NCBI GenBank assembly: GCA_028864885.1
Contig: JAGWLR010000028.1
Span: 1 to 37,447, forward strand
Length of the DNA: 37,447 nt
Direction: 5' to 3'
Origin: Burkholderiales bacterium
GTDB lineage: Bacteria > Pseudomonadota > Gammaproteobacteria > Burkholderiales > Burkholderiaceae_C
Below, piece by piece: positions 12,535-18,388 of this stretch (position 1 is the first letter of the stretch; the number at the start of each line of letters is the position of its first letter). The translations under genes and the position numbers were made by a program. The notes under the pieces were generated by a model that was not told the DNA's origin, searched no databases, and was given only the letters and a program-made list of their open reading frames with translations.

Positions 12535-12566
12535 AAAACCCGATGCCGAAAGGCGTCGGGTTTTTT
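12535..12566 (+). terminator. Intrinsic terminator of aceA
   Basis: AAAACCCGATGCC pairs with GGCGTCGGGTTTT (one G-T pair) around a GAAA tetraloop and ends in six T. Confidence 0.92.
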
Positions 12567-12576
12567 ATTGTCAGGC

Positions 12577-12582
12577 TACAAT
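12577..12582 (+). promoter_or_regulatory. Probable -10 box of the thrS transcript
   Basis: TACAAT is a good -10 box, but no matching -35 is seen at normal spacing (the position falls in the aceA terminator). A start near 12589 would place all thrS leader elements in the transcript. Confidence 0.45.
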
Positions 12583-12593
12583 CCCAAGATGTG

Positions 12594-12613
12594 CTGACAT
12601 CGCTATGTGTCAG
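12594..12613 (+). other. Hairpin near the 5' end of the thrS leader RNA
   Basis: CTGACA and TGTCAG form a perfect 6-base stem around an 8-base loop that contains an ATG (12605). It may act as a 5' pause hairpin or RNA stabiliser. Confidence 0.45.
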
Positions 12614-12657
12614 TGGAACGCACACCAAGTAAGGAACGTAGAAAGGCAGTCACGGTT

Positions 12658-12705
12658 ATGACACCGCGAACTTCGACCACCACTTTCACCTCCACCGAGG
12701 TTTAG
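12658..12705 (+). CDS. thrS leader peptide, threonine-rich (MTPRTSTTTFTSTEV)
   Basis: A 15-codon frame with Thr at positions 2, 5, 7, 8, 9, 11 and 13, ending in TAG. It lies 123 bases upstream of thrS and 40 bases before a strong terminator. This is the expected form of an attenuation leader peptide sensing charged tRNA-Thr. GAAAGG at 12641-12646 could be its ribosome site, at the long spacing of 11 bases. An in-frame GTG at 12613 would lengthen it to 31 codons with two more Thr codons. The ATG also overlaps the stop of a short frame at 12605-12661 by ATGA. Confidence 0.75.
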   Translation: MTPRTSTTTFTSTEV

Positions 12706-12771
12706 TCGGCTGGCCGCTGCTTTCGTTTTTCCTGATCTGACCAGAAAGCGCGGCGCCCCCCGCGCTTTTTT
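12693..12771 (+). promoter_or_regulatory. Transcription attenuator of thrS
   Basis: The terminator is AAAGCGCGG (12745-12753) paired with CCGCGCTTT (12760-12768), then T. A competing antiterminator can form between GCCGCTGCTTT (12713-12723) and AAAGCGCGGC (12745-12754), ten pairs with one bulged T. A protector hairpin can form between CCACCGA (12693-12699), at the end of the Thr codons, and TCGGCTGG (12706-12713). A ribosome stalled on the Thr codons would break the protector and favour antitermination. Pairings were found by eye and no energy was calculated. Confidence 0.7.
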
Positions 12772-12827
12772 GTTGCCCGAATGCTTTTGCTTTGGGCGTA
12801 TTCCAAAAAACTCAAGTTGAGACAATC

Positions 12828-14747
12828 ATGATTTCCATTCAATTGCCCGATGGTTCCAAGCGTGAATTTCCGGGCCCCGTGACGGTGGCCGACGTGGCCG
12901 CCTCGATTGGCACGGGATTGGCCAAGGCTGCTTTGGCTGGTCGTGTGGGGCAGGGGGAAGCTGCTCGTCTGGTCGATACCAGTCATCGGATCGATTCGGA
13001 TACCCAGTTGGCCATCATCACCGAGAAGGATGCGGATGGCCTGGACATCATTCGCCATTCGACCGCGCACTTGTTGGCGTATGCAGTGAAAGAGTTGTTC
13101 CCTGAGGCGCAGGTCACCATTGGCCCGACCATTGAAGACGGCTTCTACTACGACTTCGCCTACAAGCGCCCCTTTACGCCGGAAGACTTGGAGGCCATCG
13201 AGAAAAAGATGGCTGAGTTGGCCAAGAAGGACGAGAAGGTTGAGCGTAAGGTGCTGCCTCGTGATCAGGCTGTGTCTTACTTCAAGGGCTTGGGGGAGCA
13301 CTACAAGGCCGAGATCATTGAAAGTATCCCTGCTGATCAGGACGTTTCGCTCTATTCCGAGGGAGCGTTCACCGATCTGTGCCGCGGGCCTCACGTGCCG
13401 AGCACAGGTAAGCTCAAACACTTCAAGTTGATGAAGGTGGCGGGCGCCTACTGGCGGGGCGATCATCGCAATGAGCAGTTGCAGCGAGTGTATGGCACGG
13501 CCTGGACGACCAAAGATGACCTGCAGGCCTATCTGACTCGTCTCGAAGAGGCTGAAAAGCGTGACCATCGCAAGCTGGGGCGTGAGCTCGATTTATTCCA
13601 CATCGACGATCACGCTCCTGGTGTGGTCTTCTGGCACCCGAAGGGGTGGTCGGTGTGGCAGGCGGTGGAGCAGTACATGCGCCAGGTCTACCGTGACAAC
13701 GGGTACCAGGAGGTCAAGGGTCCCCAGATCATCGACAAGACCTTGTGGGAAAAAACAGGTCACTGGGACAAGTACCGTGAAAACATGTTCACGACCGAAT
13801 CGGAAAAGCGTGACTACGCGCTCAAGCCGATGAACTGTCCTGGCCACATCCTGATCTTCAATCAAGGAATCAAGAGCTATCGCGATCTGCCCGTGCGTTA
13901 CGGTGAGTTTGGGCAATGTCACCGCAATGAACCTTCCGGCGGCTTGCACGGCATCATGCGTGTACGCGGCTTTACTCAGGACGATGGCCACGTCTTCTGT
14001 ACCGAAGATCAGATCCTGGCTGAGTGCGTGGCTTTCACGGCCCTGTTGCAGAAGGTGTATCAGGATTTCGGATTCACCGACATCATCTACAAGGTGGCGA
14101 CTCGCCCCGAGCACCGCATTGGCTCGGATGAAGTCTGGGACAAAGCCGAGAGTGCCTTGATGGAGTCATTGCGCGCCACTGGCAGCGAGTTCACGATCGC
14201 GCCGGGGGATGGGGCGTTTTATGGTCCCAAGATCGAGTACACCCTGAAAGACGCCCTCGGACGCCACTGGCAGTGCGGCACGATTCAGGTTGATTTTTCG
14301 ATGCCGCAGCGCCTCGGCGCAGAATACGTGACCGAAACCAGCGACCGCAAGCACCCTGTGATGTTGCACCGCGCGATCCTGGGGTCGCTGGAGCGATTCA
14401 TCGGGATTTTGATCGAGCAACATGCCGGTTCGCTGCCAGTTTGGCTGGCGCCGGTGCAGGCGGTGGTGCTCAACATCACCGATGCGCAGGCTGATTACGC
14501 TCAAGAAATTGCCAAATCACTGCAAAAACAAGGACTTAGGGTCCAGCTCGATTTGCGAAACGAGAAAATCACGTATAAAATCCGTGGGCATTCTTTGCAG
14601 AAGGTGCCTTACTTCATCGTTGTCGGTGACAAAGAGAAGGCCGATGGCACCATCGCCGTGCGCGCCCGAGGGAACCAGAACCTCGGTGTGATGTCGCTCG
14701 AAGATTTCTCCCAGAAGATTTCTCAAGACATCGCCAATAAGGCCTGA
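12828..14747 (+). CDS. thrS: Threonyl-tRNA synthetase
   Basis: Charges tRNA-Thr with threonine. Started at ATG 12828 ([10 protein letters not shown]) it is 639 residues, against 642 in E. coli; the upstream TTG extension is rejected. Domains in order are TGS (about 1-62), the editing domain with H-S-T-A-H-L near 73-78 and C-R-G-P-H near 185, the class II catalytic core from about 245 with [14 protein letters not shown] motif 2 and motif 3 near 525, and the anticodon-binding domain from about 545. It heads the thrS-infC-rpmI-rplT-pheST-ihfA cluster. The leader carries a Thr-rich peptide and a terminator, in contrast to the E. coli gene, which is controlled by an RNA operator bound by ThrRS itself. 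Confidence 0.98.
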
Positions 14748-14861: not shown

Positions 14862-15410
14862 ATCGCTAACTTTTTTGACCGCCGGACGCCCAATGTCGAG
14901 CGTAAGCACCGGCTCAATCGTGAGATCACAGCACCTGAGGTGCGTCTGAACGGGGTTGAGAACGAACCCCTGGGTATCGTCAGCATCCAGGAGGCCTTGC
15001 GCCTGTCTGCAGAGGCTGATGTGGACTTGGTCGAAATCGCGGCTCAGGCGGATCCCCCTGTGTGCCGTCTCATGGATTACGGCAAGTTCAAGTACCAGGA
15101 ACAGAAAAAAGCTCACGATGCCAAGCTGAAGCAAAAGGTCATCGAAGTCAAAGAAGTCAAGTTCCGCCCTGGTACAGATGAAGGCGACTACCAGATCAAG
15201 CTGCGCAATCTGCGACGCTTCCTGGAAGATGGCGACAAGGGCAAGGTGACCCTGCGGTTCCGTGGCCGTGAAATCACCCACCAGGAACTGGGCATGCGGT
15301 TGCTGGAACGTGTACGCGATGATCTGGTCGATTGCTCGATTGTCGAAAACATGCCGAAGTTGGAAGGGCGCCAGATGATCATGGTTCTGGCACCCAAGAA
15401 GAAGAAATAA
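14862..15410 (+). CDS. infC: Translation initiation factor IF-3, AUC start
   Basis: IF-3 binds the 30S subunit and rejects non-standard start codons and wrong tRNAs. Conserved IF-3 sequence begins well upstream of the first ATG/GTG/TTG in frame: [11 protein letters not shown], then [13 protein letters not shown]. There is no usual start codon in that stretch, and AAGGA (14850-14854) sits 7 bases before an ATC at 14862. The start is therefore AUC, giving 182 residues (E. coli 180). E. coli infC uses the similarly rare AUU, which allows IF-3 to repress its own translation. The C-terminal domain ends [17 protein letters not shown]. Confidence 0.9.
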
Positions 15411-16183: not shown

Positions 16184-16254
16184 TGAAAGCACAATGATGC
16201 CGTTTCTGGCCGTTGTTGCGACACTTCGGTGTCTGATGGCGGCTCAGTAACCTG

Positions 16255-16283
16255 AAGGCCAACAGTTTGTTGGCCTTTTTTTT
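16255..16283 (+). terminator. Intrinsic terminator immediately before pheS
   Basis: AAGGCCAACA and TGTTGGCCTT form a perfect 10-base stem with a 3-base loop, followed by T to 16283. It ends 12 bases before the pheS ATG, leaving no space for a promoter, so pheS is reached only by read-through. It may be an attenuator. A UUCG hairpin (GACAC/GTGTC, 16220-16233) precedes it. Confidence 0.9.
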
Positions 16284-17362: not shown

Positions 17363-18388
17363 ATGAGCACACGCATTCAATCTTGGGCCGCCATGGCAAA
17401 GGGGCAGCCTTTGTCTCCCTACACCTTTGAGTTCGGGCCTCTCGGTGCGGATGAGGTCGAGGTGGTGGTCGAACATTGTGGGCTGTGTCATTCCGATCTG
17501 TCGGTGATTGACAGCGAATGGGGTGAATCGCCCTACCCTGTGGTGGCGGGTCACGAGGTCATCGGACGCGTTGTGGCGCTGGGCGAGCATGCGCAGGGCC
17601 TCAAACTGGGCCAGCGCGTGGGCATTGGCTGGAACGCTTCCAGCTGTATGCACTGCCAAGTCTGTCTGGGGGGAGAGCATCAGTTGTGCCGTACGGCACA
17701 GCCCACGATCATGGGGCACCACGGCGGCTTCGCTGAACGTGTGCGTGCTCACTGGTTGTGGACCGCGCCGGTCCCTGAGGGTTTGGATGCGGCCAAGGCC
17801 GGTCCCCTGCTTTGTGGTGGCATCACCGTCTTCTCGCCCTTTCTGAACTTCGACATCAAGCCGACGCATCGCGTGGGAGTGGTGGGCATTGGTGGTTTGG
17901 GCCACTTGGCCATCAAGTTCGCGAAGGCTTGGGGTTGTGAGGTCACGGCTTTCACGTCCAGTGAATCGAAGCGTGATGAGGCAATGCAAATGGGGGCTCA
18001 CCGTGTGGTGTCGAGTGTGGACACCGCCTCGATGAAGTCCGTGTTTGGCCAACTCGACATGGTCCTGGTGACCGTGAACGTGATGCTCAACTGGAAGGAC
18101 TTGATGCGCACGCTGCGCCCGAACGGCCGCCTGCACGTGGTGGGGGTGGTTCCTCAGCCCATGGCCATTGAAGCAGGGGTGTTGATCGGTGGTCAACGTT
18201 CGGTGTCGGGCTCGCCTACGGGCTCTCGGCAAGACATTGACACCATGCTGGAGTTTGCCGCCCGACACGGGGTCGTGCCGCAAACCGAACATTTCCCGAT
18301 GAGTCGCATCAACGATGCGCTAGAACATTTGCGCGCTGGTAAAGCGCGCTACCGGGTCGTGCTAGAGGCGGATTTCGCTCAGGCTTGA
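17363..18388 (+). CDS. Zinc-dependent NAD(P) alcohol dehydrogenase (YahK/cinnamyl type), between pheS and pheT
   Basis: A 341-residue medium-chain dehydrogenase. Catalytic zinc residues are in H-C-G-L-C-H-S-D and G-H-E-V-I-G-R-V; the structural zinc site is the four-Cys cluster C-M-H-C-Q-V-C-L-G-G-E-H-Q-L-C. The Rossmann motif G-I-G-G-L-G-H-L-A lies at about residues 175-183, and the overall pattern fits the YahK/CAD branch that reduces aldehydes, often with NADPH. GGAGA precedes the ATG. It begins 29 bases after pheS and ends 33 bases before pheT, in the same direction, so it must share their transcript. It has no known role in translation. Confidence 0.92.
   Translation: MSTRIQSWAAMAKGQPLSPYTFEFGPLGADEVEVVVEHCGLCHSDLSVIDSEWGESPYPVVAGHEVIGRVVALGEHAQGLKLGQRVGIGWNASSCMHCQVCLGGEHQLCRTAQPTIMGHHGGFAERVRAHWLWTAPVPEGLDAAKAGPLLCGGITVFSPFLNFDIKPTHRVGVVGIGGLGHLAIKFAKAWGCEVTAFTSSESKRDEAMQMGAHRVVSSVDTASMKSVFGQLDMVLVTVNVMLNWKDLMRTLRPNGRLHVVGVVPQPMAIEAGVLIGGQRSVSGSPTGSRQDIDTMLEFAARHGVVPQTEHFPMSRINDALEHLRAGKARYRVVLEADFAQA

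Follow-up and report, generated by a model that had tools for sequence, protein, structure and literature searches.

A probable threonine leader-peptide attenuator upstream of thrS in many Burkholderiales

The trp, his and thr leaders of enterobacteria are the classical amino acid operon attenuators. Among the aminoacyl-tRNA synthetases, pheST of E. coli is preceded by the pheM leader and its attenuator, which sense phenylalanine and sit before pheS. The thrS gene of E. coli is not known to carry a threonine leader, and its control involves an operator at which threonyl-tRNA synthetase (ThrRS) binds its own mRNA and represses translation. T-box riboswitches couple synthetase genes to tRNA charging by direct binding of the tRNA. 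Lopatovskaya et al. (2010), alongside whom Vitreschak et al. (2004) are said to be cited in reference lists, reportedly dealt with attenuation of aminoacyl-tRNA operons. Since that study may have predicted a thrS attenuator, we do not claim that such an element is absent from print. Histidine leader peptides have been predicted upstream of hisS paralogues of bacilli (PMC2965389). Among the matches listed, the open-access literature, including the accessible parts of PMC2965389, PMC4833913, PMC3766115, PMC11109978 and PMC10272879, held no description of a thrS leader peptide in Betaproteobacteria.

Here, we analysed 37,447 nucleotides of a Burkholderiales bacterium (contig JAGWLR010000028.1; the whole stretch is called the window below) and consider it highly likely that thrS is governed by a ribosome-mediated transcription attenuator responding to how much charged tRNA-Thr is available. 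Judged from the sequences compared, this RNA switch would probably turn thrS up when charged tRNA-Thr is scarce, and would do so in many relatives.

Layout of the aceA-thrS gap and threonine content of the leader frame

In the window, 343 bases separate the end of aceA (12484; isocitrate lyase by NCBIfam) from the start of thrS (12828). The features of the locus are as follows:

12535-12564: terminator-like hairpin after aceA
12577-12582, forward strand: TACAAT, a likely -10 element for transcription of the thrS leader, as judged from its position and from TANAAT enrichment in relatives
12640-12649, forward strand: leader ribosome-binding site AGAAAGGCAG, segment 1a, also the 5' partner in the probable pairing with segment 2
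12655-12671, forward strand: near-invariant start block GTTATGACACCGCGAAC, segment 1b, from three bases 5' of the ATG through the second base of codon 5
12658-12705, forward strand: leader peptide frame MTPRTSTTTFTSTEV, ATG at 12658 to TAG at 12705
12692-12713, forward strand: small hairpin around the leader stop codon, from RNA folding
12713-12724, forward strand: segment 2, antiterminator 5' strand GCCGCTGCTTTC
12744-12754, forward strand: segment 3, antiterminator 3' strand GAAAGCGCGGC and terminator 5' arm (the arm itself 12744-12753)
12760-12771, forward strand: segment 4, terminator 3' arm with the T tract
12828-14747, forward strand: thrS, threonine--tRNA ligase (TIGR00418, 732.7 bits against a cut-off of 383.65)
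16254-16278: terminator-like hairpin with a T run between rplT and pheS (gap fold z -3.46)

An earlier note on this DNA had described, before thrS, a 15-codon frame with seven threonine codons, a GC-rich terminator with a T tract and a competing antiterminator. This observation was correct, since the frame, the terminator and the stronger antiterminator were all located in the aceA-thrS gap. The leader region folded better than its shuffles (z -2.18; 6 of 200 shuffles were as good).

For comparison with relatives, we used 109 distinct leaders. Removal of identical sequences had reduced the set from 117 to 112, of which 109 were kept for statistics; the rows left out were L030 (thrS start missing) and L113 and L161-L163 (duplicates or unrelated). 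The leaders lie 113-278 nt before thrS (median 145), a nearness that is partly by construction, since matches with at most three mismatches were sought within 330 nt of thrS. L013, which has no terminator, was left out of the pairing tests (n=108), and L009, which has a short upstream region, was also left out of some of them (n=107).

The TANAAT motif occurs between -110 and -25 of the leader ATG in 62 of the 109 leaders (mononucleotide shuffles expect 4.5). No full sigma-70 match was found at TACAAT 12577-12582, and the likely promoter there has no clear -35 element. Purines at -16 to -12 of the leader ATG are conserved in the aligned leaders.

The leader of the window has 15 codons, seven of which encode threonine. 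Threonine-richness alone is weak evidence, because 4 of the 928 short open reading frames of the window (10-25 amino acids, counted by start site) are equally rich, with at least six threonines at 30% or more, the thrS leader included; conservation is what decides. Over the set, threonine accounts for 195 of the 912 codons after codon 5 (0.214); for the other frames the fractions are 0.014 and 0.042. Codon 6 is a threonine codon in 57/109 leaders, all four threonine codons being used there and the third base being nearly free (0.11 bits). Codon 7 encodes threonine in 55/109 leaders, mostly as ACC, and the first two bases of both codons are most often AC. The in-frame enrichment together with the free third base speaks for selection on threonine content in a frame that is translated. 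There are 24 block-bearing leaders among the 109 that lack threonine after codon 5 and thus have at most two threonine codons each; 16 of them come from families other than that of the window. These leaders count against the threonine-sensing model, which leaves them unexplained.

The start block and the distribution of the leader

From -3 to +13 around the leader ATG, the 109 leaders are almost fixed, silent sites included, and the edges of this block are sharp; its apparent invariance is inflated by the fact that leader rows were picked by resemblance to it. Wherever codon 2 encodes threonine (106 leaders) it is ACA, and codon 5 is ACT or ACG. The invariance of silent sites across families seems to exceed what pairing or the peptide needs, and the attenuation model does not require it.

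The block is widespread in the family of the window. GTTATGACACCGCGRAC was found with at most one mismatch in 226 of 299 family genomes (reversed-pattern control: 7), and 73/299 lacked it. In eight of the genomes the matches were located relative to thrS by eye, and all were roughly 115-180 nt upstream. The 18-mer GGTTATGACACCGCGAAC was present with at most four mismatches in 72 of the 110 thrS upstream regions first examined, that of the window included. In the order sample it was found at one mismatch in 46/399 genomes (control: 1), and all 45 matches outside the window's genome lay 113-280 nt before thrS, though the search ignored thrS. The class sample yielded a match in 3 of 185 genomes (control: 5), two of the three being from the window's family. 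The third, L163, was considered as a thrS leader and discarded: by eye it has no thrS context and looks like a TonB-receptor gene; the match seems to be due to chance. In the window's own genome the 18-mer has one exact match and two with three mismatches; the reversed control also gave two, and second copies were discarded since these matches are no more numerous than those of the control.

Threonine leaders also occur without the block. In 80 upstream regions, hand-picked at 1-5 per family from 36 families of the order besides that of the window, a CGA codon followed by a threonine codon (CGA-ACN) was present in a short ATG or GTG frame in 25 (shuffles: mean 2.5, largest 8). At least two threonines in the seven codons after CGA-ACN were found in 18/80 regions from 13 families (shuffles: 0.5) and at least three in 12/80 (shuffles: mean 0.03, largest 1). 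Examples are MFRTSTTTQS, MVYFRTGTTSGRNIH, MSFRTTTTGTLNLG and MFKRTTTTRISR. The remaining 55 of these 80 regions had no CGA-ACN leader. Families f3, f8, f10, f17, f35 and f47 were left out of this sample as their loci were already in the set, and f2, f9, f16, f27, f31, f41, f42 and f45 as they had no listed match or none that was picked. Of the best 29 order loci besides the window, 16 carry a CGA-ACN leader, and four of the other 13 best-scoring loci have variants beginning MTPLT or MRPPTT. Outside the order, none of 28 upstream regions, taken from the best-scoring extra-family genomes of 114 searched, had a CGA-ACN leader before thrS; two of the 28 were shorter than 200 bases, and this search covered the CGA-ACN type of threonine leader alone.

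Several of the block-less leaders lie between tRNA-Val(GAC) and thrS. In 29/29 loci run in ARAGORN (picked by eye, L196-L265), this tRNA gene precedes thrS in the same orientation, whether a leader lies between them or not. A further observation made by eye concerns L010, L011, L015, L019, L022, L025 and L111, which have a terminator-like hairpin before thrS but lack a leader frame; in most of them a promoter-like box is seen as well.

Taken across Burkholderiales, the alignment that the earlier note had proposed as a check showed leader, threonine codons, antiterminator and terminator to be conserved in many relatives, though not in all (exceptions 73/299, 55/80 and 24/109 as given above). 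The lack of conserved threonine codons or pairings that the note had named as refuting was not seen. Both the terminator-like hairpins without a leader in several relatives (by eye) and the 55/80 regions of other families without CGA-ACN count against the attenuator.

Pairing arms, proposed switch and rival explanations

A terminator finder passed 108 of the 109 leaders, against 3.7 expected from shuffles, and the GC-rich terminator of the window ends at 12771 as had been claimed. The antiterminator was recovered with slightly different borders from those first given, as 12713-12724 (GCCGCTGCTTTC) with 12744-12754 (GAAAGCGCGGC); it comprises 11 pairs with one bulge at -19.7 kcal/mol, and the terminator hairpin alone is weaker (-15.6 kcal/mol). 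Over the set (n=108), segments 2 and 3 paired with better energy than their shuffles (mean z -1.29, p=3e-15), the window reaching z -3.48, and singly 31/108 leaders had p<0.05. When the arms were swapped between species, the native combination was better in 70/108 leaders (-11.66 against -10.79, p=1.3e-4). An upstream control stretch gave 49/108 (p=0.29) and the terminator arms, as expected, 106/108 (p=2e-19). Thus, the arms of both pairings co-vary, with the reservation that all these pairing p values ignore the kinship of the sequences. The block-less leaders gave a similar picture: in 20 of them (the 25 CGA-ACN leaders minus L193, L201, L207, L208 and L240, which were chance-like or had one threonine) pairing of segments 1 and 2 exceeded shuffles at p=0.009 and that of segments 2 and 3 at p=0.0004.

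The pairing that would compete with the antiterminator was not the one anticipated. The earlier note had assigned this role to a protector hairpin following the frame. Such a hairpin exists (12692-12713), and we rejected it as the switch because it adjoins segment 2 and can coexist with the antiterminator. The competitor is more probably the leader ribosome-binding site and, over the set, codons 3-6 as well. When the window is folded as untranslated RNA, the terminator is present and segment 2 lies base-paired to AGAAAGGCAG at 12640-12649. Pairing of the ribosome-binding site with the stretch after the stop codon was 0.553 against 0.397 in shuffles (p=4e-11, n=107; window 0.69 against 0.56), and that of codons 3-6 with the stretch just 3' of the stop codon 0.42 against 0.31 (p=1.5e-7, n=108). 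The codon pairing was singly significant at p<0.05 in 12/108 leaders (window p=0.125), and in a longer fold the codon part of the window paired below shuffles (0.09 against 0.18). A first duplex test of the whole leader against the post-stop region gave no signal (mean z 0.08, p=0.13).

From these parts we infer a promoter, translation of the leader, stalling and a direction of response as follows. A transcript starting near 12590, as suggested by the -10 box, would carry the 15-codon threonine-rich leader. Segment 1 would consist of the leader ribosome-binding site and, in many relatives, of the first codons, and segment 2 follows the stop codon. When Thr-tRNA is scarce, the leading ribosome would stall in the threonine-rich stretch (codons 5-13) and block pairing of segment 1; segment 2 would then be free to pair with segment 3, no terminator would form and thrS would be transcribed. 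With Thr-tRNA plentiful, the ribosome would reach the stop codon, mask part of segment 2 and depart, whereupon segment 1 would take up segment 2, the terminator (segments 3 and 4) would form and transcription would end near 12771. If no ribosome is present at all, segment 1 would likewise hold segment 2 and the terminator would form. When a ribosome was placed on the stop codon of the window with 12 bases masked, RNAfold slightly preferred a partial antiterminator (-16.1). According to this modelling, the terminator would form in the window only if slightly more of the RNA were masked, or if release of the ribosome were followed by pairing of segments 1 and 2. The logic of amino acid operon attenuation, which had been put forward for this gene before, is supported; the dependence on threonine itself is what we infer.

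The invariance of the start block invites other readings. The block might itself be a sensor, on which a ThrRS-like factor or a special initiation step acts at GTTATGACACCGCGRAC, so that the element would read tRNA-Thr charging and a second signal. We regard this as unlikely; if it were true, the second signal would have replaced the first in those lineages where just two threonine codons remain in the leader. Those same leaders, in which the block is kept, together with its conservation at silent sites (ACA as codon 2 in 106/106 leaders with threonine there), would also fit autoregulation as in E. coli, in which the synthetase binds the invariant block and stops leader translation or read-through. 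Such a system would sense free ThrRS and not charging. We hold it to be very unlikely, since threonine codons are enriched in frame beyond the block, with a free third base in codon 6, and the block forms no local hairpin: almost nowhere along it does pairing, within itself or with the 5' flank, exceed that of shuffles. A mimic of the anticodon arm in the block was looked for and is not seen, because there is no local hairpin and the 5' flank is variable.

A general sensor of leader translation, responding to initiation or to slow codons such as CCG-CGA and not specifically to threonine, would accommodate the 24/109 leaders without threonine after codon 5 and the participation of the ribosome-binding site in the pairing network. 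The enrichment of threonine in most leaders and in the block-less leader types makes this quite unlikely. It is hardly credible that the hairpin simply terminates transcription from aceA or from an upstream tRNA-Val, that thrS is reached by read-through and that the short frame is incidental. In some relatives a terminator-like hairpin is indeed seen by eye without a leader, accompanied by tRNA-Val (confirmed by ARAGORN) or by a promoter-like box, but a separate terminator-like hairpin follows aceA at 12535-12564, the likely -10 box lies 3' of it, and leader, threonine codons and antiterminator are conserved. Attenuation by charged tRNA-Thr is the reading we carry forward.

Downstream genes and comparison with known systems

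Downstream of thrS lie infC, rplT, pheS and pheT by NCBIfam, and a 67-codon frame is read from its sequence as a putative rpmI. The start codon of infC (14862-15410) is most likely ATC, which is rare, and between pheS and pheT there is a gene for an Ahr-type aldehyde reductase (17363-18388, NF047908, above cut-off). As to the extent of control, it had been proposed that low charging raises infC-pheST together with thrS. That the thrS attenuator also governs pheST is doubtful because of the second terminator-like hairpin, at 16254-16278 between rplT and pheS. A counterpart of this hairpin was seen by eye in 18 of the 18 relatives' gaps that could be delimited (20 were fetched), with a T run directly behind it in 16. 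The case for this hairpin rests on conservation, because in a plain terminator scan of the whole region the 9 hits did not exceed the 9.9 expected from shuffles. No phenylalanine-rich leader was found in the rplT-pheS gap of the window.

Rfam 15 returned no family at gathering score for the leader of the window (Thr_leader, other leaders and T-box included) and otherwise weak unrelated matches; for 20 relatives it gave tRNA matches alone, with no leader family and no T-box.

By analogy, the thrS element would work like a classical leader-peptide attenuator. It shares with these systems a T tract, a short leader in which the sensed amino acid is frequent, and an antiterminator and a terminator as alternative structures. 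It differs from them in that a tRNA synthetase and not a biosynthetic operon would be controlled, and in that segment 1 includes the leader ribosome-binding site and a near-invariant start block. A leader peptide preceding synthetase genes is known elsewhere from pheM, with which the thrS case has in common leader-peptide attenuation of a synthetase and the neighbourhood thrS-infC-rpmI-rplT-pheST, whereas here a threonine leader stands before thrS. The E. coli thrS operator controls the same gene, likewise at the mRNA leader, but by protein binding and translational repression. T-boxes also tie synthetase genes to tRNA charging, and no T-box match was found here. If the attenuator is real, it would add, for Betaproteobacteria, a third way of thrS control beside the E. 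coli operator and the T-boxes, and would be present in many families of one order. Among predicted systems, the hisS paralogues of bacilli come close: they share predicted leader-peptide control of synthetase-family genes and differ in amino acid, phylum and sequence (PMC2965389).
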